Source of the DNA: a virus
Virus record (IMG/VR): IMGVR_UViG_3300022925_000122
Location: 1 to 29,740 of that record
Reading direction: 5' to 3' (one strand)
DNA: 29,740 bases
Shown in pieces: positions 6,388 through 27,836 of this stretch. Below the pieces are notes generated by a model that ran no database searches, had not been told where the DNA came from, and saw only the letters and a list, made by a program, of their open reading frames with translations. Made by a program: the position numbers and the translations under genes. Within the stretch, counting starts at the first letter, position 1; every line of letters starts with the position of its first letter.

Positions 6388-8665
6388 AATCTTCCTCCTC
6401 TGAATTTTCTAGTTCCGAAACTAAACTTTCAAGTGATTGAGTGGTTTCCTCAACCTCGTCATCCTTCATATCATACGTATTCTGATAATAAGAAGTCTTC
6501 CAACCGTACTTATATGTAGTTAAAAGGTCTTGTGCCCAAACCGAAATGGGAATCTCATTGTTAGGATAATGAGTTGGATTGTAAGACCAGTTACCACTAA
6601 TTGCCTGATCGAAGAACTTTTGCATCACAGCAACAATATTAATATAACCACGATTAGACTCCATCTCCCAAAGAAGAGTATAATTGTTCTTAAGAGTTGC
6701 ATATTGTGGAACAATCTGCTTAAGGACTCCCTTCTTCGACTTCTTAGAGGACAAGTATCCTCTAGGTGGTTCGATTCCATTTGTTGCGTTTGACACAACG
6801 GAACTGCTCTCTGATGGCATCTGTGCGGACAGTGTTGAGTTCCTAACTCCGTATTTTTTGACAGACTCCCTAAGACTATCCCAATCATATTTTAACACAT
6901 TCGGGACAATTTCATCAACGTCCTTCTTGTATGTATCAATTGGAAGAATTCCCTGAGCATACTTTGTGCGATTACTGTATTCGCACGCACCTTTTTCCTT
7001 AGCAAGGTTTACAGTTGACTGAATAAGATAATATTGGAACGCCTCAGTCAGTTCATGTACCGCACTCCAAGCATCAGGAGAGTCATAAGAATGCCCGTTC
7101 TTGGCAAGATAGTGTGCCAGTCCGATGAATCCAATACCAAGGGAACGACGTGCCTTGGTGGCGATTTCTGCCGCCTTGATTGGATAACCTTGGAAGTCAA
7201 TGAGTTCGTCTAGAGCACGAACCGACAAGTCACAAAGAGATTCAAGATCTTCAATCCTGAAAATTTTACCAACATTTACAGCAGAAAGAATGCACAGAGC
7301 GATTTCACCATCAGTGTCATCGATGTGTTGTAGTGGTTTTGTTGGCAGAGTAATCTCTTGGCACAAGTTGCTCATCTCAACTTTATCCAAGAAGGATGAG
7401 TGAGAATTGCAGTGATCGATATTCATGATATAGAGGCGTCCAGTCTCTGCACGCTCCTTCAGAATATCAAGAATAAGTTTCTGAGCCCCGATAGTTTTTC
7501 TCGGAATAGAGTCATCTCGTTCATAGCCCACATAGAGATCATCAAATGAATCAGTACCAAAAGCATCATAGAGTCCCGGAACATCATGCGGTGAGAACAG
7601 GCTAATCTCTCCATTCTGGATGAAACGTTCATAGAAAAGTTTTGAAATCTGGATGGAGTAATCAAGTTTCCTTACGCGATTATCTTCTGTACCCTTGTTG
7701 TTCTTGAGAACAATGATATCTTCTATTTCTTGGTGCCAGATTGGGAAGTGGACAGTCGCTGAGCCACCTCGTATTCCATTTTGTGTACAGCACCTGACAG
7801 TCGATTCAAACTTTTTAAGGAATGGTACAACACCTGTGTGTTGAACCTCTCCGCCTCTGATTTTAGCGTTGATGCCACGGATTCTGCCTGCGTTGATACC
7901 GATGCCCGCCCTTTGTGCAACATATCTGCCGATAGCCATATCAGAACTAAAGATGCTATCGAGGGTGTCATCAGAATCAATAAGAACACAGCTAGCATAT
8001 TGTCTAAGTGGAGTTCGCACTCCTGCCATGATAGGTGTGGGGATGTTGATTTTGTGCTTGCTGATTGCGTCGTAGTATCGCTTGACATAATCGAGCCTAG
8101 TTTCCCTTGAATATTTAGAGAAAATAGTGGCGGCAATCATCAAATACATGAACTGTGGCGTCTCATAAAGTCCACCACTACTACGATCCTGAACCAGGTA
8201 CTTATCAACTACCTGACGCAAACCCGCATACGTGAACAAATAGTCACGTCCATGATCGATATATGACTGAAGTTTATCAAACTCTTCCTCACTATAGAGA
8301 TTTAAAATCTCTGCATCATACACTCCACGATTAACACAATTTTCAACATGCTTCTTCAGACTAGGCACCTCGTGCATACGTCCATAGATTTGTTTACGCA
8401 CTGCGAACAATAAAAGTCTTGCAGCAACAAACTGATAATTAGGGTGCTCCAAGTCAATTAAGTCAGAAGCAGAACGAATCAAAATCTCCTGAATTTCTGC
8501 TGTGGTAATACCATCATAAAATTGAATACCAGATTGCATTTCAACTTGAGAAGCAGACACACCAGCAAGATCTTTACATGCTTCCTCCACCATCACATGG
8601 AGTTTATTCAAATCAAGAGATTCAGTATTACCATTTCTCTTGACTACCTTTGTCCCATTGCTCAT
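6368..8665 (-). CDS. nrdA: Ribonucleotide reductase class Ia large subunit NrdA
   Basis: This 765-residue alpha subunit reduces ribonucleoside diphosphates for phage DNA synthesis. It has an N-terminal ATP-cone (TKVVKRNGNTESLDLNKL). The active-site cysteines are present: C226 in YASCVLI, radical C435 with Glu in NLCQEITLP, and C458 in ALCILSAVN. The radical-transfer Tyr pair is at 726-727 (TSYYQNT), and the C-terminal CESC pair at 760-763 serves for re-reduction by glutaredoxin or thioredoxin. The length matches the class Ia family, so all key residues appear intact. The gene starts in an ATGA overlap with gp61 and ends overlapping nrdB, forming a primase-reductase transcription unit. Confidence 0.98.
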   Translation of the reverse strand: MSNGTKVVKRNGNTESLDLNKLHVMVEEACKDLAGVSASQVEMQSGIQFYDGITTAEIQEILIRSASDLIDLEHPNYQFVAARLLLFAVRKQIYGRMHEVPSLKKHVENCVNRGVYDAEILNLYSEEEFDKLQSYIDHGRDYLFTYAGLRQVVDKYLVQDRSSGGLYETPQFMYLMIAATIFSKYSRETRLDYVKRYYDAISKHKINIPTPIMAGVRTPLRQYASCVLIDSDDTLDSIFSSDMAIGRYVAQRAGIGINAGRIRGINAKIRGGEVQHTGVVPFLKKFESTVRCCTQNGIRGGSATVHFPIWHQEIEDIIVLKNNKGTEDNRVRKLDYSIQISKLFYERFIQNGEISLFSPHDVPGLYDAFGTDSFDDLYVGYERDDSIPRKTIGAQKLILDILKERAETGRLYIMNIDHCNSHSSFLDKVEMSNLCQEITLPTKPLQHIDDTDGEIALCILSAVNVGKIFRIEDLESLCDLSVRALDELIDFQGYPIKAAEIATKARRSLGIGFIGLAHYLAKNGHSYDSPDAWSAVHELTEAFQYYLIQSTVNLAKEKGACEYSNRTKYAQGILPIDTYKKDVDEIVPNVLKYDWDSLRESVKKYGVRNSTLSAQMPSESSSVVSNATNGIEPPRGYLSSKKSKKGVLKQIVPQYATLKNNYTLLWEMESNRGYINIVAVMQKFFDQAISGNWSYNPTHYPNNEIPISVWAQDLLTTYKYGWKTSYYQNTYDMKDDEVEETTQSLESLVSELENSEEEDCESCKI

Positions 8666-9633
8666 ATCTTTTTCCAGTTGTTAAACTTAATTTTTGCTTC
8701 TAAACCTGAGTATGTATTTGATTTTAACATAGTCTGTACATCATGTCCAGAGAGAACCATATCATTGATATCTTTCTCCAAAAGACTGTTTGCCCAGATA
8801 ACTACCTTTTCTCCTCTATCGATAAGTTTGGCAATTCGGTTGACGATTTCTCGGTTGCGTGGTTCATTATCAAGAACCCAAATATAATCGCGCCAGCCAA
8901 GCGCCCCAACATCAACATCGGACCCGCACATAGCAACAGCGTTTTCCACGAACGTGGAGTCAAACGGTCCTTCGACAATGTAGATTGATTTTTCTTCATC
9001 GACTTTTTCAAGCCCGTATAGTTTCGGAGAATCATCTCTCAACATCACAGTGATATATTTAACAGAGTTAGGAGTTAGACTTCTACCCTGAAAACCGATG
9101 AGATTATTGTCCCCATCATACATTGGTATGATAATACGAGGTTCATCCCTATATGTGGAGTCAAACGTTTGTTTTTGTGTGTTTGTCCACTGTTTAAACT
9201 TGTCAGTAAAATAAAACTTTTCTGGATTTAGTTTACGTTTCTCTAAGTATTCTTTAGCAACTGGATTTGTGGACGCCTTAGGCAGTCCCAAACTTTTTTT
9301 AAATGTTGGTTTCTTGAATTCTAACTTTGGTGTATCAACAACAAAGTTTCTACCAGTGTGTCCTTCCTTAAATTTCTCAAGCGTATACTGTTTGTGAAGC
9401 GTGGTGTCTAATGTCTTCAAAAAATTATTCAAAGACATACTGGCACCACAATTATGGCACTTGTAGTTAGTGTTGTTCTTCACAACATAGATATACCCTC
9501 GCGCCTTGTTCTTTTGCTTTTGTGAGTCCCCACAGATAGGGCAGCGGAAGTTGTAGAGATCCGACTTAACCCTCTTAAATTTTTGCAGGCGTGAAGAAAT
9601 TAATCCAACGTACTTGGAATCAACCAGATCCAT
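8662..9633 (-). CDS. 61: DNA primase gp61
   Basis: This 323-residue protein (T4 gp61 is 342) is the primase subunit of the gp41/gp61 primosome. An N-terminal zinc-binding domain is shown by CPIC at 31-34 and CHNC at 59-62. The toprim catalytic domain follows: IYIVEGPFD with catalytic E221, and WVLDNE with the metal-binding acidic site near D255. It makes RNA primers for lagging-strand synthesis. A strong sigma70-like promoter lies just upstream inside the end of the previous gene, and the ATG has no clear ribosome-binding site. It is translationally linked to nrdA by ATGA. Confidence 0.95.
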   Translation of the reverse strand: MDLVDSKYVGLISSRLQKFKRVKSDLYNFRCPICGDSQKQKNKARGYIYVVKNNTNYKCHNCGASMSLNNFLKTLDTTLHKQYTLEKFKEGHTGRNFVVDTPKLEFKKPTFKKSLGLPKASTNPVAKEYLEKRKLNPEKFYFTDKFKQWTNTQKQTFDSTYRDEPRIIIPMYDGDNNLIGFQGRSLTPNSVKYITVMLRDDSPKLYGLEKVDEEKSIYIVEGPFDSTFVENAVAMCGSDVDVGALGWRDYIWVLDNEPRNREIVNRIAKLIDRGEKVVIWANSLLEKDINDMVLSGHDVQTMLKSNTYSGLEAKIKFNNWKKI

Positions 9634-9645
9634 CGTGAAAGAACA

Positions 9646-10062
9646 CTACTTGGTTCTCTCTATTGTAGTCTGTATGTCTGGTGGTGTCAAGAAGATGGGT
9701 GCAATTCTGCTACCTGCACCAATGATGAGTGCTGTTACCACTAGCACTCCACCAACTTGCCATCTAAATTTTGAAAGAGATTTTATTTCTAGTTGTATTT
9801 TATCAATTCGTTCATGAATAATCTTATGATCATTTTCACTTTCTGCCTTTAACTCATCAATCATCTTTATGATGAGAGCATCAGTCTTCATACTCTGCTC
9901 AATTCTCTCATCGTGCTTGGTGAGAATCTGAGCAATACGATTATTACCTTCGGATATCTTTTCTACGGCATTCTCTAACTTGGAGAGCATTTCCTTAGAA
10001 AGCTCTTCATACATATCAAGTTTTGATTCCAACACTGCTACTTTGGAACTATCGTTAAACAT
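9646..10062 (-). CDS. Coiled-coil protein with C-terminal membrane anchor
   Basis: I start at ATG 10062 (MFNDSSKVAVLESKLDMYEEL), which overlaps the preceding stop as TAATG and has AAGGGA upstream, rather than at an in-frame ATG six codons earlier. The ~138-residue product has a long heptad-type helix (about residues 10-100). A transmembrane segment (VGGVLVVTALIIGAG) follows near residues 105-120, then a short Pro/Thr-rich tail. The topology suggests a membrane-tethered coiled coil. Similar proteins are frequent in cyanomyoviruses and have no known function. Confidence 0.8.
   Translation of the reverse strand: MFNDSSKVAVLESKLDMYEELSKEMLSKLENAVEKISEGNNRIAQILTKHDERIEQSMKTDALIIKMIDELKAESENDHKIIHERIDKIQLEIKSLSKFRWQVGGVLVVTALIIGAGSRIAPIFLTPPDIQTTIERTK
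9662..9690 (-). promoter_or_regulatory. Sigma70-like early promoter for gp61-nrdA-nrdB
   Basis: TTGACA and TACAAT are separated by exactly 17 bases on the minus strand. The predicted start near 9655 gives a ~22-base leader before the primase ATG. The boxes are embedded in the last codons of the coiled-coil membrane protein gene. Confidence 0.7.
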
Positions 10063-10274
10063 TATCCCTTGCCACTCCAACGCTTTCTAGCACCAGGAAA
10101 TTTTCCTCTACCGATTATTGTTGGTAAATCTTTCTTTTTCTTCTTCTTTAAATTAACAGGAGGATCTCCAGTGATTCCTGCAACACCGCCGCCACCTACC
10201 GAGTTCGCAATCTCCTCTTTAAGACTTAGAGAGCGAATCATTCTCTTTATATTTTCTAAACGCTTATCGTCCAT
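10062..10274 (-). CDS. Small basic hypothetical protein
   Basis: This 70-residue protein has a helical N-terminus (MDDKRLENIKRMIRSLSLKEEI), a Gly-rich hinge (GGGGVAG), a poly-Lys run (NLKKKKKKDLP) and a basic tail (GRGKFPGARKRW). The high positive charge suggests nucleic-acid binding, but no family is recognised. It overlaps the preceding stop by one base (TGATG) and the following gene as TAATG, so all three genes here are coupled. Confidence 0.78.
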   Translation of the reverse strand: MDDKRLENIKRMIRSLSLKEEIANSVGGGGVAGITGDPPVNLKKKKKKDLPTIIGRGKFPGARKRWSGKG

Positions 10275-15746: not shown

Positions 15747-15769
15747 CAGACTTTTATTTTTATTTAGAA

Positions 15770-15843
15770 TGGAGAATAGGAGACTCGAACTCCTGACATT
15801 TTGCTTGCAAAGCAAACGCTACTACCAACTGAGCTAATTCCCC
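15770..15843 (-). tRNA. tRNA-Ala (anticodon UGC)
   Basis: A 74-base cloverleaf starts GGGGAATTAGCTCAGTTGG. It has the anticodon arm TTTGC-TTTGCAA-GCAAA with anticodon TGC, and the T-arm GGAGTTCGAGTCTCC. The acceptor stem GGGGAAT/ATTCTCC contains the G3-U70 pair that defines alanine identity, and the discriminator base is A. CCA is not encoded. It lies between the small MazG-containing block and the late-type island. A sigma70-like promoter and a UUCG-loop hairpin lie directly upstream. It reads GCA codons, likely supplementing the host pool. Confidence 0.95.
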
Positions 15844-15847
15844 AGAA

Positions 15848-17017: not shown

Positions 17018-18390
17018 AACTTAAACCCCTCAAATGATTTTTTTGGTTTGTGTTCCTCATTATTATACTCTTCATCCTGCCCACTGTCAAGAATATCATT
17101 CTGTGCAGACTGTTCACAATCATACAGACGCATCTTAGAGCGATCGATGCCAACTACAAATCTCTTGTTTACGGCAAGATCGTTATATCTATTCTTCAAC
17201 TGCTTCACCATAATTTGTCCCAACTCCTCAAGCTCATCTGTAGAAATAAGGGCAAGCATAAGATCAGCAGTAGCAGGCAAACCAAAGGATTCACTAGTAT
17301 CAGTAAGATCAATATCACTGCTACCATAACCAGAACGAGTGGTCTGCGTGGCAGAAACGATAGGGACATTTGCTTCAACAGCCAACCCTCTAAGCTCTTC
17401 TGCAATAGACTTAATATAGCTATATGAGTTGATAGAACCACCTTGCTTATAGCGGGAGGAAGCGCATATATTAAGGTAATCAATGAAAATAATATCAGGG
17501 TGGAATGACTTCTTAAGTGCAAGCTCATTAAGAAGTGCCTTAAAGTGTCCACTGTGGGCAGATGCTGTAGGATATTCTTTAATTATAAGAGTTCCTTGAG
17601 TTTTTGCCGCCAACTTATTAATCTTGTTTTCAAAGGTTGACTTAGGCAGTTCAGTCAAATCCTGAATAGGAACATTCAGGAGGTTTGCGTCAATTCGTTC
17701 AGCAATTTTTTCTTCTGCCATTTCCATTGTAATGTATAGAACGTTCCGTCCCTGGAGCAGCACGGAGCTAGCCATGTGGCACATGAATAAAGACTTGCCG
17801 ACGCCTGTACCAGCAAGCGCGATGTTAAGAGTCTTGTTAGGTAAACCACCTTTGGTAATTTTGTTAAGGTATTCAAGATCAAATGGGATTTTATCTTCCT
17901 TGGTGTGATAGAAGTCATATCTTTCCTCGTAGTTTTGTAAGTAATCATGTCCAATATTATTATCAAAAGAAACTGCTAGCGCCTCAGAAAGAATACTAGG
18001 AATAGCATCCCGACTTTTATCTTTACTACCACCATCGGCAATACCGATAGATTCCATCAGTGCAAGATAAATCGCACGATCACGACACCACTTTTCAGTG
18101 GAGTCTAGTAACCACTGATAATCTACTTGAGAGTCATCAAAAGAATGACAGATATCTCTCGTCTCTTTGATTTCACTCTCGTTTAAATCAGTTCTGTTCT
18201 CAACCTCAATATTTAGTGCTTCCGTTGTGATAGCAGAACCATAATCAACAATGAACTGAGTAATCTCTTCAAAGATTACTCTTTCAGTTCTCTGTTCAAA
18301 ATAGTCAGGTTGAATAAATGGTATTACTTTGCGAGAGTATTCTTCATTATATACTAGGTTTCTAAGAATTGTTGTTTCAATTCGTTCCAT
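17014..18390 (-). CDS. 41: Replicative DNA helicase gp41 (DnaB-like)
   Basis: This is a 458-residue hexameric helicase that unwinds the phage replication fork and partners with primase gp61. The N-terminal domain (RNLVYNEEYSRKVIPFIQPDYF) matches T4 gp41. The RecA-like ATPase core has Walker A GTGVGKS at 194-200, YITMEMAEEKIAERIDAN downstream, and Walker B FIDYLNIC. I favour ATG 18390 (MERIETTILRN), which fits the T4 N-terminus. A TTG at 18411 with GGAG upstream is an alternative adding seven residues. It overlaps the uvsX end. Its own 3' end contains a consensus promoter for the next block. Confidence 0.96.
   Translation of the reverse strand: MERIETTILRNLVYNEEYSRKVIPFIQPDYFEQRTERVIFEEITQFIVDYGSAITTEALNIEVENRTDLNESEIKETRDICHSFDDSQVDYQWLLDSTEKWCRDRAIYLALMESIGIADGGSKDKSRDAIPSILSEALAVSFDNNIGHDYLQNYEERYDFYHTKEDKIPFDLEYLNKITKGGLPNKTLNIALAGTGVGKSLFMCHMASSVLLQGRNVLYITMEMAEEKIAERIDANLLNVPIQDLTELPKSTFENKINKLAAKTQGTLIIKEYPTASAHSGHFKALLNELALKKSFHPDIIFIDYLNICASSRYKQGGSINSYSYIKSIAEELRGLAVEANVPIVSATQTTRSGYGSSDIDLTDTSESFGLPATADLMLALISTDELEELGQIMVKQLKNRYNDLAVNKRFVVGIDRSKMRLYDCEQSAQNDILDSGQDEEYNNEEHKPKKSFEGFKF
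17062..17090 (-). promoter_or_regulatory. Consensus sigma70 promoter inside gp41 3' end
   Basis: The minus strand carries TTGACA, exactly 17 bases, then TATAAT, a perfect match to both hexamers. It is encoded within the last ~25 codons of gp41 (segment LDSGQDEEYNN). It faces the 115-residue protein, mazG and the small genes leading to the tRNA. Confidence 0.72.
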
Positions 18391-19384
18391 AAGAGAATTC
18401 AGTATTTGCAATTTGATCTAGTTTCTCCATAATGTCAGGAGTGAAGTACTGCTCGGGATCTTTAAGTATTGCTTTGGCATAGACCTTCTTTCCGTTGATT
18501 TCATATCGACCTGCGACATTTTTCCAAAGTCCGCCAATCTCACCGAGTTCAAGAAGACCGTAATAACGATCAAGACCACGCTCATCGTAATACAAACGCA
18601 CCGTAACATCTTGGTTCTCCTTGCTTAAACGCGACTTAGCAGTCTTTGCCTTGATAAGGTTTCCGACAACATCTGTTCCGTCTTTTTCTTTTTTCTTGCT
18701 GAGATGGATGATAGTAGAAGCAGCATACTTAAGACCAGAACCGCCTCCCATCTCTTTTGTAGGAACATAAGCGCCAATGACATCGTAGGTGTGGTTGGTA
18801 ACAATCATAGGAATGTTAGCCTGCCCCAGTTTAAGTGTCAACATCCTGAACGCACCTTTAATCAGTTGTGATTTTGTCATATCACGAACTTGTTTGTCGT
18901 TGAGTGCGTCAGTAATCTCCTTCTCTGTGGAAAGCATACCCAGAGAGTCTAACACAAACATGCAGGGTTTGCGTTCGTCTTCAGGTTTTTTTAAGTAAAT
19001 GTCTACTGCCTTGAGTGCCTTGCTACGGAACTCCTCAACGGTAACAACATTGACTACTACCAAACGAGAGGTGTCAATAGCCCTAGACTCAAGTAGGGAC
19101 TTAGTGATAGCTGCCTCAGTATCAAAATAGAGACAATAGCCATCGGGATTGGTATCGAGAAAATTCTTAACAACGGCGAGGCTGAAGAAAGTCTTTCCAG
19201 TAGAAGACTCTCCAGCAATAGCAGTAATCTTATTCCCAGATACACCACCAAATAAACTACCTGAACACAGTCCATTAAGAATGTACGAACCCGTGTCAAC
19301 AAAACTTTCATTTTCATCTATATCTGAAGCGAGTTTGGTAAAGTCATCACCAATCTCTTTTACAATATCTTTGAGGAAATCCAT
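18377..19384 (-). CDS. uvsX: UvsX RecA-like recombinase
   Basis: This 335-residue strand-exchange protein is the T4-type RecA homologue needed for recombination-dependent replication and repair. Walker A is GESSTGKT at 58-65, Walker B-like is MFVLDSLGML at 142-151, and the DNA-binding loop region includes KEMGGGSGLKYAASTIIHL. The length is shorter than T4 UvsX (about 390), as in cyanophages. It starts in TAATG overlap with the gp43 C-half. A sigma70-like promoter inside that gene about 90 bases upstream could give independent early expression. Confidence 0.97.
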   Translation of the reverse strand: MDFLKDIVKEIGDDFTKLASDIDENESFVDTGSYILNGLCSGSLFGGVSGNKITAIAGESSTGKTFFSLAVVKNFLDTNPDGYCLYFDTEAAITKSLLESRAIDTSRLVVVNVVTVEEFRSKALKAVDIYLKKPEDERKPCMFVLDSLGMLSTEKEITDALNDKQVRDMTKSQLIKGAFRMLTLKLGQANIPMIVTNHTYDVIGAYVPTKEMGGGSGLKYAASTIIHLSKKKEKDGTDVVGNLIKAKTAKSRLSKENQDVTVRLYYDERGLDRYYGLLELGEIGGLWKNVAGRYEINGKKVYAKAILKDPEQYFTPDIMEKLDQIANTEFSYGTN

Positions 19385-20550
19385 TATCCAAAAAATAGTT
19401 CAAGGTTTACTGTTTTTTCAACATTCCATCCAATCGAATCGAGAATGGATTTGAGAGGTTCTACAAAACTTTTCTCAAATTGTAATTCATAATCAATGTA
19501 CTTGTCAAGTCCAAGTTCCGTAGGAAAATCCTGAATGAAGGAGATTACATTCTCCTGAATAATGTTTGGTTTCTTCAGATAAATGAACTTAATTTTTTCA
19601 CCATTATTAATAAGTGAATACTTGTTATCAAGTTTTTTCTCCTTAATATAGTGATTAAAGAGAAGTGCTCCACGACAATGAATGGGAGTTCCCTTTACAT
19701 AGATGTCTGAGTGGGAACGGTATTTTACCACATCTGAAACTGATCTGGGGAAAGCAATTTCCTCTGGAGAAAGTGATTTGAATTTGGTTCTACAATCATC
19801 AATGAACTCAATAACTTCTTCCTCAGTTCCATTCATCATCAACTTGAGTCCATCCTTAATCATCTGACGACAGGGAGCAGGTGTAGAAGATTTAACTGCT
19901 TCAATTCCCATCATCTTTAGTTTAGGATCGTCATACCGAACTCCTTCACTATCCCATACGTTGAGAATATATCGCTTCTTCGCGGTCCAGATACCACGTT
20001 CAGCAATATTCTCACGCTTCATTTGCATTTTCTGATCATACGCCGATACATAATCCGCAAGTTCTTGATATGAACGTTCAATAAAAGGTTCCAGTTTCTC
20101 TTGGCAGATCTTGTCAAGTATCCCCACAACTGCTGTTTTGTCGCCAGACTTAGCACTAAAAAATTTAGTAACAAGAGGTCCGAGATTAAGATAAATCGAA
20201 TCAGTGTCAGATGCGATGACATAATCTTCGCCTTCTGTTTTTAAAAGATTATTTAGATATCCGTTCATTTTATTCTCAATCCAGCGGATTGATACCTGAC
20301 CAGATAACGTAATCGCTTCCGCGTTGGCAAGCTTGTAATACCTGAAATACTGATTGCCAATAGCACCGTAAGCACTGTTAAGTTGAATCTTACGCGCCAT
20401 CTGGATGTTATTACATCTAGAAATTTCTTTCTCAGCATTAGTTCGCATCCTCCACAATTCATTGTCAGAGAGTTTCGCATACTTACTATTGCCAGAGACA
20501 ACAACTTCTTCCTGGTGTTCTTCTTTATTACCACCAATAAGATAACCCAT
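19384..20550 (-). CDS. 43B: DNA polymerase gp43, C-terminal half (fingers/palm/thumb)
   Basis: This 388-residue half of the family B replicative polymerase carries motif B (KIQLNSAYGAIGN at 54-66), catalytic motif C (SDTDSIY, D115 and D117), KAKKRYILNVWD, and the thumb. It ends in LELFFG, equivalent to the T4 gp43 tail LDFLFG that docks on the sliding clamp. It lacks exonuclease and motif A, which are in the gene immediately upstream. Its ATG overlaps that stop as TAATG and has AAGAGG about ten bases upstream, encoded in the end of the N-half. The two chains must assemble to give an active enzyme. Confidence 0.95.
   Translation of the reverse strand: MGYLIGGNKEEHQEEVVVSGNSKYAKLSDNELWRMRTNAEKEISRCNNIQMARKIQLNSAYGAIGNQYFRYYKLANAEAITLSGQVSIRWIENKMNGYLNNLLKTEGEDYVIASDTDSIYLNLGPLVTKFFSAKSGDKTAVVGILDKICQEKLEPFIERSYQELADYVSAYDQKMQMKRENIAERGIWTAKKRYILNVWDSEGVRYDDPKLKMMGIEAVKSSTPAPCRQMIKDGLKLMMNGTEEEVIEFIDDCRTKFKSLSPEEIAFPRSVSDVVKYRSHSDIYVKGTPIHCRGALLFNHYIKEKKLDNKYSLINNGEKIKFIYLKKPNIIQENVISFIQDFPTELGLDKYIDYELQFEKSFVEPLKSILDSIGWNVEKTVNLELFFG
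19479..19508 (-). promoter_or_regulatory. Sigma70-like promoter for uvsX inside gp43 C-half
   Basis: TTGACA and TACAAT are separated by 18 bases on the minus strand, encoded within LDKYIDYELQ near the polymerase C-terminus. They lie about 100 bases before the uvsX ATG. Confidence 0.5.
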
Positions 20551-22019
20551 TACAAAATGCCTCTTCGCTTCATTTCCTCTTCAATATCAACTAACTGCTG
20601 CTTAGCAGAAAGCATTTTTTTCTTAAAGACTGTTCTATCCTTATAAATCTTCTCCATCAATTCTGGCAGAAATCCACGGACATCTTTACGATACATGGCA
20701 CCATTAGCACATACCGCATTGTCTTTATACATCTCAAATGTCAGTTCCTCATTAAGTATCTTATCAACTGTTGCTGATGGGTGCCTGGTATCCCTGAGCG
20801 TTTCTGGTGAGATATTATACTGCATGATAAGGTGAGGATACAGACTGTTGAGGTCAAAAGACACAACCCAATCATACTTTCCAGGAATCGGTTCCTTGAC
20901 ATACGCCCCCGCATACTTAGAGTCTTTATCAGAACGTTCTTTAGGAGGAATAACAATATTCCTTTTCTTCAAATAGTTATAAATGATAGTATCCCACATG
21001 CGGACTTGTGAGAACACATCAGTATAGTTTACCTTAGCGTCATATGCCATGGTAATCGCAAGTTCAATCAGTTTCATCTTGTCTTCCATACGGTCGACAA
21101 GTTCCACGTCAATGATGTTGTATTCTACAAACTTCTGCCAACCCTTTGTATAAAAGTCCTTGAATGTATCGTACTCAGAGTGATCGAGTTTCTTCTGCCC
21201 AAGTTCTACACTAGCAATATAATCCAGGCGATAGGATTCTTGTGCTTTGTATGTGAACTTCTTATAGAGATTGAGATAGTCTAACTGGCTGACACCACCA
21301 ACATCGTAGGAAATATGTTTACGTCCAACAATGTAAGTTTCTTTCTCAGTCACAAGTCCCCAGGGAGAAAGACGCTTCATCAACTTCTCACCAAGGATTC
21401 TTTCAATCCTACGAACAAGATAAGGAATATCATACAGTTCACTATTCCAACCAGTGATAACTTCGGGAGTATTTTCCTCAATCATCCACCAGTCTATGAA
21501 ACTGCTCAGAAGTTCATACTCAGTTCTGAAACCTTTGTAGATAACATTCTCTTGCTTGTTCTTGAAAGGTCCACGTCCCCAGGTACGAATCTGCTTTGTT
21601 GCATAATCCTGGATAGTAATTAGTAGAACTTCCTCAGCGGCAGATTCCACATCAGGGAATCCGTTTTCAGAAGCAACCTCAATATCAAGTGTGGTAATCT
21701 TTACTTTAGTTGTATCAAACTTGATTTCCTCTTCCTTATACATCTCAGAGATGTACTGATAGATGTATCCAGTGTTGCCATGAACTTTGAAGTTTTCTAC
21801 ACCATCATACTTTTTGATGAACTCACGACAATCACGAACTGAACCAGGTTTAATTGGTTCGACATGTTCTCCACTGAGAGTTTGATATTTTGTTTTTTTA
21901 TTTGATGGAACAAAAAGAGTTGGATTAAACGTTTCACGAGTCATGAAATGTTTACCGTTCTCATAACCACGTACCAAAAAGTGATTTCCAACCATTTGGA
22001 CGTTTGTATAAAATCGCAT
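20550..22019 (-). CDS. 43A: DNA polymerase gp43, N-terminal half (exonuclease/palm A)
   Basis: This 489-residue half contains the N-terminal domain and the 3'-5' exonuclease: LDIEVAS with D112/E114, GWNSELYDIPY with D197, and YNIIDVELVDRM with D304. The first palm segment with motif A is FDLNSLYPHLIMQYNISPET (D389). It ends within the fingers after FLPELMEKIYKDRTVFKKKML. Together the halves give 877 residues against 898 for T4 gp43, so little or nothing is lost. The exonuclease residues are intact, so proofreading should be kept. The start overlaps the stop of the second Sm-like gene as TAATG. Confidence 0.95.
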   Translation of the reverse strand: MRFYTNVQMVGNHFLVRGYENGKHFMTRETFNPTLFVPSNKKTKYQTLSGEHVEPIKPGSVRDCREFIKKYDGVENFKVHGNTGYIYQYISEMYKEEEIKFDTTKVKITTLDIEVASENGFPDVESAAEEVLLITIQDYATKQIRTWGRGPFKNKQENVIYKGFRTEYELLSSFIDWWMIEENTPEVITGWNSELYDIPYLVRRIERILGEKLMKRLSPWGLVTEKETYIVGRKHISYDVGGVSQLDYLNLYKKFTYKAQESYRLDYIASVELGQKKLDHSEYDTFKDFYTKGWQKFVEYNIIDVELVDRMEDKMKLIELAITMAYDAKVNYTDVFSQVRMWDTIIYNYLKKRNIVIPPKERSDKDSKYAGAYVKEPIPGKYDWVVSFDLNSLYPHLIMQYNISPETLRDTRHPSATVDKILNEELTFEMYKDNAVCANGAMYRKDVRGFLPELMEKIYKDRTVFKKKMLSAKQQLVDIEEEMKRRGIL

Positions 22020-22276
22020 TAGGCAATCATCTCAAGATATTTTGCAAGTATATCCTTATTAGGATCTGCAATAGTCATAATAGAATCAGAATGAATCATA
22101 AGTTCATTCTGCTCAGTAAAATCTAACCATACTCCCAACTGTTTCTTTACAGTATCTAATAGGAATGGATTGGTTAGTTTACAATCAGGTTCACCAAGTT
22201 CAGAACCAACCTCTGTAATTTCAGAAACAACTACTTGATTATTCTTCAGTAGAAGACACTTCACCATCTTGTCCAT
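22019..22276 (-). CDS. Sm-like small protein, second of tandem pair
   Basis: This 85-residue protein (MDKMVKCLLLKNNQVVVSEITEVG...) aligns with its upstream neighbour. Shared positions are the start (VKxxLLKxxxxVxxxI), the middle (xLxNPFxL / xFKNPYIV) and the end (SDSIMTIADPNKDILAKYLEMI / HDWLVSIVNPLNDITALYEEML). The pattern fits a short five-stranded beta barrel of Sm/LSm type, and an Sm-like protein of cyanophage origin is known structurally. The ATG has AGGAG seven bases upstream and lies 38 bases inside the first paralog. Its stop overlaps the polymerase start. RNA binding or a replisome role is inferred only. Confidence 0.82.
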   Translation of the reverse strand: MDKMVKCLLLKNNQVVVSEITEVGSELGEPDCKLTNPFLLDTVKKQLGVWLDFTEQNELMIHSDSIMTIADPNKDILAKYLEMIA

Positions 22277-24362: not shown

Positions 24363-27300
24363 TTATTCAGTTTCCTCTACTCTCTTCTTCAAATAGTTTG
24401 GACGTTTCTTCTCATACTTTTTCATATATTTTTTAATTGACTTATGCTTAATCTCTGGTTCATCAATGTCTACATGTCTCATCGGTGGTGGAGTAACTTT
24501 AAAACTCTTAGGATCTGTAAGTTCAATATTCTTCCTAATGGATTTATTTACTTTCTTGAATAGTTTTTCATTCTCTACAAAAGTATTGTCAATATAAACT
24601 TGGTTCGCATTAAGCATCGATTGAACCTTAACCATCTTAGGATCTAAGCGTTCATTCGGAGGTAATAGCAGTTGCTCAAGTTGCATCTTAAGTTCAACTT
24701 GTATGTAAGTTTTTGCAACCGATGGTAAAGAAGATAATGCATTCAAGAAAAACTCATATTCACCTTGATAGAGACGGTTTTCTGGATTTGTTCTTCTTTT
24801 CCACTTACTCATCATACTCTCTTTAACATTCTCTGGACTTCTCAAATAACTGTTCTTTGTGTAAAGATGTGCCTGATCGAATGGTATTTTCATAACCACA
24901 TTAAGAACTGGCATCTCTTTATCTACATCGTTCAATCCAGAAAAAGCATCTTCTATATCTTTTTGATAAAGATTGTTCCACTCCTCACTAAATCCATCAA
25001 TACTAAATCCTAGAGTCTCGGTTATTCCAGTGATAGCACTTAGAACCTGAGTCATGATGGAGTATTCGATTCCCTGCTTAGAATTGAATAAGTAAATTTT
25101 TCCCAACATAACAATATTTTCACTGTCGTCAATTAACACTTCGGGAGTTTGAATGAAATTATCCATCACACACTTGGCGGCAACATTGCCACCATGATCT
25201 ATATGTGTGGTTGCATTCTTAACCAAGAAATCGGATAATCTACCATCCTGTTCTGGATTATATGGTTCACCAGTGAATTGATTTGTGAGAAGATATTCGT
25301 TGGTGCTATCAGAGAAAGTTATCTCTAATGGTTTTTCTTGAGAACCTTCCTCTCCCTTTGGAATTTCATATCTTTTATTATTAGATTTACGAATCCATGT
25401 GTTGCGTGTCAGAATGAGACTATCGATACAATTTCCCAAAACGTCAACGGCATCAGCAATACCATCCATCACATTAGCAACATGATCGACAGGTACGCCA
25501 GTCTGTTGTTCAAACTCTATTGATTCTTGCAGGTAAGATTCTACTACTCTAGCTCTATCAACAACACCTTTATTGATAAGTTGATTGTAAAATTTCGGAT
25601 TACTCTTTTTAATATCACTAAGCTTCAACTTTACCTCACCAGGTCTTCCCTTTGCTCCTCCAAGTTTCTCTGCCTTTTCAATATACTTACTAGCAAGAGG
25701 AACGGGAAGTGAGTCAAACTTATACTTTTCACCACCACTGAATGCCGAAGCTATAGGACTAAGAGCGTTATAAAATGTTTCCATAGCGGTTCCTTGAGCA
25801 CCAGACATAACAGTTTTGGTGTCTTGGAAATTGTAGTTAAATCTTACAGAAACCTCATCAGTTAATGGATTGTAATCATCAGGAGTTATTGGTTGTCCTG
25901 TGGCAATAATAAAATCACCAAAAGGCATTTTAAACTGAGCGTCATCAGAAAGTATTCCTTTCTCCAAAACTTTATTTACATAATCATTACCAAGATAAGC
26001 ATTATCAATAGTGGGAGGTAAGTCTCCGGTAAGGAAATCAAGAAAAAGTTTAGCGGTTGTTGGAGCAGAATATTCTGCAAGATTTTTTCCAACTCTAAAC
26101 AGAGGATCTTTCATCAACTCTTTGAGAATTGCTTCTTTGTTAGAAGAAAATTCCTTCTGTGCTTTATCAAAGTTATCATTAACTGCTTTTTCTACTACCT
26201 TATCAGTTTCTGCTGGATGACTATCCTTATAAGTATCAACATAATCAATAACACTACCACCCTGCTCAAAATCATTCTTTGCATTTAAGTATAATTGATT
26301 AACTTCTCCTTGTGTTTGTATAATTCTTCTCTGCAACTCAAATACTTCTGCTTGCCTATTAGATGTTTCTCTTTCAAGGTGTGCTCTTGCCATCCTCGCA
26401 GCAAAAGAATCTCCCGAAGGTGGAATCATATTTCTATAGCTTTTAAGAAGTTCTTCTGCTTTGGTTAATTGTTCTGCCAGTCTAATTACAAGGCCCTTGT
26501 AGCTCCTCTGCACCGTCTCTGATCCCGATGTCGGAATTTTTGTTCTACTGAATGCCTTATCAACATAATCATTACCAGTCGATTCAAAAGTTCCTGTATA
26601 GTAATCATCAAAGAACTTCCCTCTATCACCATATCCTTTTGGTGGAGGTGGAGTTTTTGCGCCTATATTTGTAAGATCATCTGGTGATGGAGTGTAAGTT
26701 GCTCCTCGCCCAGGAGATCTCCTAGGAGGTGTAGGAGTCGGTGTGGGTTTAGGCGTTGGTGTTGGAGTTGGTTTAGGTGTTGGAAGTGTTGGAAGTGGAG
26801 TTGGTGTTGGAGTTGGTTTAGGATCTGGTTCAATCTGTGGCATGTCCACAGGAGCATCGTCATATCCTGGAAGATCTGGTGGGACTGGAGAAACTTGTCT
26901 TGGGATATCTAATTGTGGTGGTCTATCACGCTTAGGGGGAGCAGGTGGATGTCCCATGAAAATTCTTGTCGCTTGATTGATATCACCAACAGGGATACCT
27001 GCCTTAGCAGCGTTTCTTAAGAATTTTCTAAAGTTCTTTCCTGTAAATCCCCCAACAAAACCGCCCATACCACGAGCAGCATTGCTAAGTCCACCAAGAC
27101 GACCTTTGATGCGGCGGCCGCCACCGCCGCCACCGCTGCCTCTATATCGAAGATACGGTCCCCCATAATAACTGGGATCACCCATACCAAATCTAGTGAA
27201 TGATGGTGCAATATATTTTTGATTTACAAAGTTTGGATTCTTAATTACAAGTAAACTACAACCCCAAAGTGTAAAATTACCACCAGGTCCAACATTTCTA

Positions 27301-27836
27301 GCAATTGGAGTAAAAGCAGCATCTGCTAGTCCAGGATTTCTATAAAAATGCCATTGCACCGCCGTCCATTTATTAAAGTTTGCTTCTACCCAATCACCAA
27401 CCGCTGGATCACCGCCATTTTCAAAAACACTACCAGTAATCCAACTAGAACCTTCTCTGTTATTTGATTGTAATACCGCATATACTGCGCCGCCGCCTGC
27501 ACCGAAACTACCATATCTGATTACACCAACTCCACCACTATTTTCTGCACCTGCTGGAACCGACAAAAGGTTTGTAACATTTCCATTAGCATCTGTTGCA
27601 GTCAATTGACTCATATCTGGACTACTTCCAGTCTGATCTGGAACCTCAAAATTATCAAGATCTGCAAGATCTCCCAGATACTCGTCAGTGGGTTCTCCCT
27701 GTATCTCTGGTTGACCAGGATCATCTAACTGGTTATAAAAACCAGCAACCGTCATTCTCTCTTCCAACTGACGGATTTTGCCATCAATATCCGTCAGTGG
27801 TTTTCTATATTTCTTTACGTTCGAAAATATGCTCAT
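24363..27836 (-). CDS. Very large probable virion protein of unknown role
   Basis: This is a 1157-residue multi-part protein. A short helical start (MSIFSNVKKYRKPLTDIDGKIRQLEERM) leads into a Gly-rich beta domain to about residue 225 (VGVIRYGSFGAGGGAVYAVLQ). A poly-Gly basic hinge (RGSGGGGGGRR) and GGLSNAARGMGGFVGGFTG come next. Pro/Thr repeats (TPTPTPKPTPTPTP, about 335-372) act as a stiff linker. A long helical and mixed region from ~390 contains two GNDYV(D/N)K phrases (FESTGNDYVDK and YLGNDYVNK), and a basic tail (KYMKKYEKKRPNYLKK) ends the protein. Only two Cys (near CIDSL and KCVMD) and the Gly-rich hinge I noted stand out. No enzyme motif is seen. A late promoter precedes it and a strong terminator ends it. 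Tail, baseplate or internal injected roles are possible. Confidence 0.85.
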   Translation of the reverse strand: MSIFSNVKKYRKPLTDIDGKIRQLEERMTVAGFYNQLDDPGQPEIQGEPTDEYLGDLADLDNFEVPDQTGSSPDMSQLTATDANGNVTNLLSVPAGAENSGGVGVIRYGSFGAGGGAVYAVLQSNNREGSSWITGSVFENGGDPAVGDWVEANFNKWTAVQWHFYRNPGLADAAFTPIARNVGPGGNFTLWGCSLLVIKNPNFVNQKYIAPSFTRFGMGDPSYYGGPYLRYRGSGGGGGGRRIKGRLGGLSNAARGMGGFVGGFTGKNFRKFLRNAAKAGIPVGDINQATRIFMGHPPAPPKRDRPPQLDIPRQVSPVPPDLPGYDDAPVDMPQIEPDPKPTPTPTPLPTLPTPKPTPTPTPKPTPTPTPPRRSPGRGATYTPSPDDLTNIGAKTPPPPKGYGDRGKFFDDYYTGTFESTGNDYVDKAFSRTKIPTSGSETVQRSYKGLVIRLAEQLTKAEELLKSYRNMIPPSGDSFAARMARAHLERETSNRQAEVFELQRRIIQTQGEVNQLYLNAKNDFEQGGSVIDYVDTYKDSHPAETDKVVEKAVNDNFDKAQKEFSSNKEAILKELMKDPLFRVGKNLAEYSAPTTAKLFLDFLTGDLPPTIDNAYLGNDYVNKVLEKGILSDDAQFKMPFGDFIIATGQPITPDDYNPLTDEVSVRFNYNFQDTKTVMSGAQGTAMETFYNALSPIASAFSGGEKYKFDSLPVPLASKYIEKAEKLGGAKGRPGEVKLKLSDIKKSNPKFYNQLINKGVVDRARVVESYLQESIEFEQQTGVPVDHVANVMDGIADAVDVLGNCIDSLILTRNTWIRKSNNKRYEIPKGEEGSQEKPLEITFSDSTNEYLLTNQFTGEPYNPEQDGRLSDFLVKNATTHIDHGGNVAAKCVMDNFIQTPEVLIDDSENIVMLGKIYLFNSKQGIEYSIMTQVLSAITGITETLGFSIDGFSEEWNNLYQKDIEDAFSGLNDVDKEMPVLNVVMKIPFDQAHLYTKNSYLRSPENVKESMMSKWKRRTNPENRLYQGEYEFFLNALSSLPSVAKTYIQVELKMQLEQLLLPPNERLDPKMVKVQSMLNANQVYIDNTFVENEKLFKKVNKSIRKNIELTDPKSFKVTPPPMRHVDIDEPEIKHKSIKKYMKKYEKKRPNYLKKRVEETE
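26730..26825. repeat. Degenerate tandem repeat encoding Thr-Pro linker
   Basis: Short imperfect repeats of the GGTGTTGGAGTTGGTTTAGG type on the plus strand encode the (P/K)TPTPTP linker of the 1157-residue protein in the opposite direction. Such arrays vary in length by slippage. Confidence 0.7.

Follow-up and report, generated by a model that had tools for sequence, protein, structure and literature searches.

The 29,740-nucleotide stretch analysed here (the window; IMG/VR record IMGVR_UViG_3300022925_000122, positions 1 to 29,740) encodes the replicative polymerase gp43 of the T4 type, a family B DNA polymerase, in two open reading frames (ORFs) on the minus strand, which lie at 20550-22019 (489 residues, the N-half) and 19384-20550 (388 residues, the C-half) and sum to 877 residues. 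All features of the locus given below are on this strand. The N-half contains the N-terminal domain, the exonuclease domain, motif A of the palm (FDLNSLYP, 20835-20858) and the first (N) helix of the fingers. The C-half contains the second (P) fingers helix, motif B (KIQLNSAYG, 20365-20391), motif C (DTDS, 20197-20208), the thumb, and at its end the sequence LELFFG (19387-19404), a tail of the clamp-binding type known from T4-type gp43. The PHROG and Pfam assignments follow the same partition, with the exonuclease and the initial part of DNA_pol_B on the N-half and the remaining DNA_pol_B on the C-half. The family phrog_262 and Pfam DNA_pol_B span both halves, and the presence of the exonuclease and of motifs A, B, and C identifies the pair as T4-type gp43. 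PHROGs already holds families for the separate halves (phrog_2062 for the N-half and phrog_1918 for the C-half). A preliminary description, made from the sequence alone, had placed the split in the fingers and had distributed the domains and motifs in this way, and the domain searches and alignments agree with it on both points.

The two ORFs overlap by one nucleotide (GAAGAGGCATTTTGTAATGGG), and at the junction TAATG (20548-20552) the stop codon TAA of the N-half and the start codon ATG of the C-half have one A in common. In the wider junction sequence, GAAGCGAAGAGGCATTTTGTAATGGGTTAT, a Shine-Dalgarno-like GAGG (20560-20563) is placed nine nucleotides 5' of the ATG, within the codons for KRRG in the tail of the N-half. 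This tail, LVDIEEEMKRRGIL (20553-20594), which was compared across split loci, and the head of the C-half, MGYLIGG...KLSDNELWRM (residues 1-45, 20416-20550), are specific to the split form. In an alignment to RB69 gp43, residue 481 of the N-half corresponds to residue 501 and residue 23 of the C-half to residue 529, which puts the break at about residues 502-528, at the tip of the fingers. AlphaFold models of each half alone predict a helix up to residue 485 of the N-half and another from residue 29 of the C-half, with low confidence between. By alignment and models the break thus sits between the two fingers helices. As described before, there is no homing endonuclease gene at the junction of the window.

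Recurrence of the junction and selection on both halves

Because the window is a metagenomic contig, a sequencing or assembly frameshift near 20550 might have made two ORFs out of a gene that is truly one chain, and this was the error that the preliminary description had wanted to see excluded. However, L004, L133, and L179, which come from other samples, have the same junction at about 100% identity, and the same architecture recurs in about 100 divergent contigs and in cultured isolates. In addition, the split-specific tail and head are conserved, and there is a Shine-Dalgarno sequence at the junction. Given this recurrence, base error is excluded for practical purposes, and its probability is negligible.

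The metagenome search for the junction that had been proposed before was done as a scan of IMG/VR for TAATGGGNTAYYTNATHGGNGG, which by design picks TAATG together with GYLIGG. It gave 105 stretches, and nearly all viral matches were gp43 when the fetched loci were inspected. An independent protein search found about 16 split loci among the best 80 matches, 13 of them with a direct TAATG and all with GYLIGG. A scan of a prokaryote genome collection for the junction resulted in 11 matches, all unrelated judging by the sequence after the pattern. We tabulated 100 distinct split loci, including the window's own copy and six isolates of Synechococcus phage ACG-2014f, of which 74 have the exact TAATG and 26 have inserts of 70 to 1657 nucleotides. 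Of the cultured phages, ACG-2014f has the split region, with 45 records that match it from end to end and have the same fingertip break; the other cyanophages whose gp43 was read through have an intact protein of about 830 residues. Far from being a one-off, split gp43 occurs commonly among marine cyanophage contigs, so that the earlier view of the split as unusual for cyanophages has to be corrected. In the openly searchable literature (subscription papers and preprints lay outside this scope) we found no discussion of split gp43 in cyanophages, and the polymerase goes unmentioned in the main text of the ACG-2014 isolate paper. The split gp43 of ACG-2014f is present in the annotation yet apparently undiscussed. 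That gp43 can be split was known before; new here are the abundance of the split form, the switching of alleles, the genes carried as cargo, and the probable initiation at AUU/AUC described below.

Both halves have the marks of working genes. Between the window and nine split relatives, the non-synonymous values (pN) are 0.05-0.17 and the synonymous values (pS) 0.55-0.77 in both halves, and the N-half tail and the C-half head are likewise constrained, the head somewhat less. In 54-55 aligned sequences no catalytic position varies, those of motifs A, B, and C included. By these substitution patterns both halves are under purifying selection. The window is only a 29.7-kb fragment and a second gp43 copy might exist elsewhere in the phage, in which case the split gene could be a decaying pseudogene with another polymerase taking over. 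Against this stand the selection, the invariant motifs, and the results of tblastn and blastn searches, in which each phage record had essentially a single gp43 location, the ACG-2014f records included. We consider decay extremely improbable. The halves rather look like a real and functional two-gene polymerase.

Translation of the second half

Among the 74 direct junctions, 61 have a Shine-Dalgarno match, counted as at least four nucleotides at a suitable distance, compared to about 5% of the positions inside the gene. The adjoining gene boundaries of the window are built in the same way: the small gene of phrog_483 (22019-22276) is joined to the N-half, and the C-half to uvsX (18377-19384), by a TAATG. 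TAATG alone is therefore nothing special at this place, and the split resembles an ordinary gene boundary of the operon, whose other replication genes in the window are the clamp loader gene gp62, RegA, and the gp41-type helicase, neighbours that fit a T4-type gp43. In most loci with cargo between the halves the C-half starts again in a TAATG, which it shares with the last cargo gene, and coupling to any upstream gene therefore seems to be kept. The preliminary description had regarded the junction as evolved coupling and not as decay. The recurrence of the junction, the Shine-Dalgarno matches, and the purifying selection on both halves speak for this reading, and the junction of the window is evolved and probably coupled.

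An overlap of this kind could also be a place of programmed -1 frameshifting, by which a fused chain would be made at least part of the time. In L004, which is nearly identical to the window, the C-half frame indeed has no stop over about a dozen codons before the ATG. However, an XXXYYYZ site is found in the last 11 codons at only 6 of the 74 direct junctions, and in relatives up to 1657 nucleotides of other genes lie between the halves. A fused chain made by frameshifting, even part of the time, is therefore very improbable.

Not all C-halves have an ATG at the usual place. It is absent in the loci with a nuclease gene, in the loci with a nuclease scar, and in the six ACG-2014f genomes examined, and all 12 non-ATG starts are ATT or ATC located exactly five nucleotides past a GGAGG or GAGG. 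The C-half in these loci is most likely initiated at AUU or AUC, which we infer from the sequence and do not take as settled because in some of them an in-frame GTG is found a few codons upstream. Initiation of this kind is known for infC of Escherichia coli. The starts of the C-half annotated in GenBank for ACG-2014f are inconsistent (L003:4709-4723, L210:3498-3690, L212:3498-3654) and have been placed either at a TTG three codons into the gene or further on, by 50-62 codons, the late start leading to the loss of motif B (e.g. AIX21784.1). Apparently, this inconsistency arose because the likely start is an ATT or ATC.

Two fingertip alleles and gene traffic at the junction

The fingertip of intact cyanophage gp43 is short (example KKKMLAAKQDYEKTPTKALEKEIARCNN). 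The fingertip of the split form consists of LVDIEEEMKRRGIL followed by MGYLIGG...KLSDNELWRMRTNAEKEISRCNN and is about 40-45 residues longer, near the length in T4 and RB69. The earlier comparison of 877 residues with the 898 of T4 gp43 was right in its sum but hides that intact cyanophage gp43 has only about 830 residues and that the tip of the split form is longer. Judged by its sequence, split gp43 is a different allele with a fingertip of T4 length rather than the ordinary cyanophage gene divided into halves. The window has all characters of the ACG-2014f type, namely the LVDIE.E.K tail, the GYLIGG head, and the long fingertip. Long-tip unsplit forms were also considered, because P-HM2, S-CAM1, and L013-type sequences looked so in BLAST; read through in full, all of them have the short tip.

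The length of the tip also bears on a split intein, by which the halves might be joined into one chain. Split inteins combined with a free-standing nuclease do exist in phage genes; joining of this type has been proposed for the PolB of Pseudomonas phage MIJ3 (PMC6892783) and is known in Nanoarchaeum (PMC4104785). However, neither half matches an intein family of Pfam at E <= 0.001, and there is no room for intein halves because tail and head lengthen the protein by only about 45 residues relative to intact cyanophage gp43, which results in a total of about T4 length. A split intein has next to no probability here.

On gp43 trees built from the N-half, the C-half, and both combined, the split or intact state changes seven to eight times. 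These are quick trees, built without the fingertip, in which single branches are often weak. A single clade of split forms within cyanophage gp43 is rejected (log-likelihood difference 201, p-AU, the value of the approximately unbiased test, 0.006), and in the clade of the window split and intact sequences are interleaved. The closest cultured relative of the window, S-SKS1, has an intact gp43 with 87-88% protein identity to both halves. The scattered distribution could mean that split forms arose repeatedly at the same place, and not once with subsequent allele exchange. Repeated splitting is unlikely since all tabulated cyanophage split forms have the same tail and head (LVDIE.E.K.RG / GYLIGG), which are also present in the forms found without the junction pattern and point to one origin of the tip. 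Each fingertip type looks to be of single origin, and allele exchange through recombination would be the simplest reading of the interleaving. The split fingertip is probably an old cyanophage gp43 allele that has traded places with the short one-chain allele on several occasions.

The junction is also a place of gene traffic. In L055, L083, L196, and L202 an HNH endonuclease gene (phrog_374) is located between the halves, preceded by TATAAATA, which resembles the T4 late promoter, and deletion scars of this gene of 70-77 nucleotides are present at L195 and L201. Purine-synthesis genes are found inside the polymerase locus as well (L060:2787-3754, L148:2829-4288, L161:2531-4190, L172:1474-2949), with purM between the halves in L060, L148, L161, and L172, and purS in L148, L157, and L161. 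The other inserts are small ORFs of no assigned function. Flank identities are 99.9/99.4% for the pair of L048 (empty) with L201 (scar) and 96.4/97.6% for that of L152 (empty) with L202 (nuclease). Therefore, the nuclease is gained and lost at a gene that is already split, and at least some of the homing endonucleases were inserted into genes split beforehand. In L196 (333-3514) an N-half and a nuclease of the L055 type (99.9%) meet, at the nuclease, a C-half like that of L195 (99.7%), which could be a natural half-swap or an assembly chimera. A group I intron was ruled out at the gp43 junction: Rfam gave no match to group I introns or other known RNAs in the region of the window or in the tested loci with inserts, and the junction of the window has no insert.

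The gp43 of marine cyanophages might exist as two interchangeable alleles, a one-chain form with a short tip and a two-chain form with a long open tip, which are switched by recombination. Homing nucleases and genes for nucleotide synthesis would insert at the junction of the two-chain form, and a start of the second subunit at AUU or AUC may, in certain lineages, limit its supply. We put this wider scheme forward as a tentative possibility.

A second gp43 breakpoint was seen in four cyanophage contigs with a short tip (L024:1333-4562, L025:2258-5044, L031:1813-5047, L036:1293-4079). It lies just past motif A (...DLNSLYPHLIMQYSISPETL...NNRIAELEKML*), followed by an HNH-type frame or a remnant of one and by an open frame of about 450 residues that resumes downstream; no Rfam intron was found at this breakpoint. 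Elsewhere in the window, at 8662-10080, an ORF of 144 residues and a primase ORF of 323 residues match adjoining parts of phrog_451, like a split primase. This arrangement is probably ordinary because S-SKS1 also has separate genes there. An ORF of 1157 residues between the regA and hsp20 genes (24363-27836) has no PHROGs match, and a tRNA-Ala (TGC) gene is located at 15769-15844 on the minus strand.

Comparison with other divided enzymes and a proposed two-chain model

One close comparison is that with ACG-2014f (GenBank KJ019xxx), which belongs to the same phage lineage and has the same break and homologous tail and head sequences, with 66-68% identity to the window in each half. It differs in two small ORFs (377 nucleotides) between the halves and in ATT/ATC in place of the ATG of the window. 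The analogy to the gp43A/43B of Aeromonas phages drawn in the preliminary description applies to the architecture. In phages 25, 44RR2.8t, and Riv-10 (Biquartavirus) the fingers loop is likewise cut between motifs A and B, and the halves are of similar size (about 490-500 and about 390 residues). Of these, phage 25 is the one for which the two products have been shown to co-purify and to be active as a polymerase (PMC2988022). A split gp43 is also known in the Acinetobacter phages Acj9 and ZZ1 (for ZZ1, PMC4177764), and in Acj9 the halves are parted by small ORFs as in the cyanophage cargo loci, but C-half head and cargo are different. When aligned, the breaks of these phages and of the window are close in position, which is the part of the comparison that holds; the splits themselves look independent. 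In 44RR, 49 untranslated nucleotides separate the genes and the C-half begins with MELELFRDFNEEEL, whereas the genes of the window overlap and the head is MGYLIGG. The C-half heads of the Aeromonas and Acinetobacter phages are unlike that of the window, and the tree places intact lineages in between, although 44RR is a long branch there. Because head and tail differ, the junction overlaps, and the gp43 lineages are distant, the cyanophage split is probably separate from that of Aeromonas.

Essential enzymes in two chains that are associated with homing endonucleases and still functional are also known from Aeh1 nrdA/mobE and the T4 topoisomerase 39/60 (PMC2988022). In contrast, most cyanophage loci have no nuclease, and where present it is polymorphic at an existing gene boundary. 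The replicative family B polymerase PolB of Methanobacteriales consists of two chains as well, which has been ascribed to erratic intein excision (PMC4104785), but it is archaeal and intein-linked, and Pfam finds no intein trace in the gp43 of the window.

We consider it very likely that the window encodes a functional two-subunit gp43 expressed from one operon, similar to Aeromonas 43A/43B but split separately. The N-half would be completed first, after which ribosomes would re-initiate at the overlapping TAATG, aided by the Shine-Dalgarno sequence in the last N-half codons, and the C-half would be made. The two chains would associate non-covalently, so that the palm is completed by motif A of one chain and motif C of the other and the fingers consist of two antiparallel helices, one per chain, with an open tip loop. 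Re-initiation, assembly, and activity are suggested here by analogy with phage 25, and the cyanophage enzyme would work like its 43A/43B. Two points weigh against this model. Of the 74 direct junctions, 13 have no clear Shine-Dalgarno match, and the AlphaFold models of the single halves, useful for the helices and the exonuclease, are poor in the shared palm. The poor palm models would fit with a mutual dependence of the chains.

gp43 is a core gene that is usually taken as one chain. Surveys based on annotation distort or miss its split form, because the GenBank starts of the C-half vary among isolates and some lose motif B. If two-chain gp43 is indeed widespread, a replicative polymerase would be able to work with divided fingers. 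Close relatives that differ in having the split or the intact allele offer a natural experiment on the neutral or adaptive nature of the split, and such pairs are ready for biochemistry.

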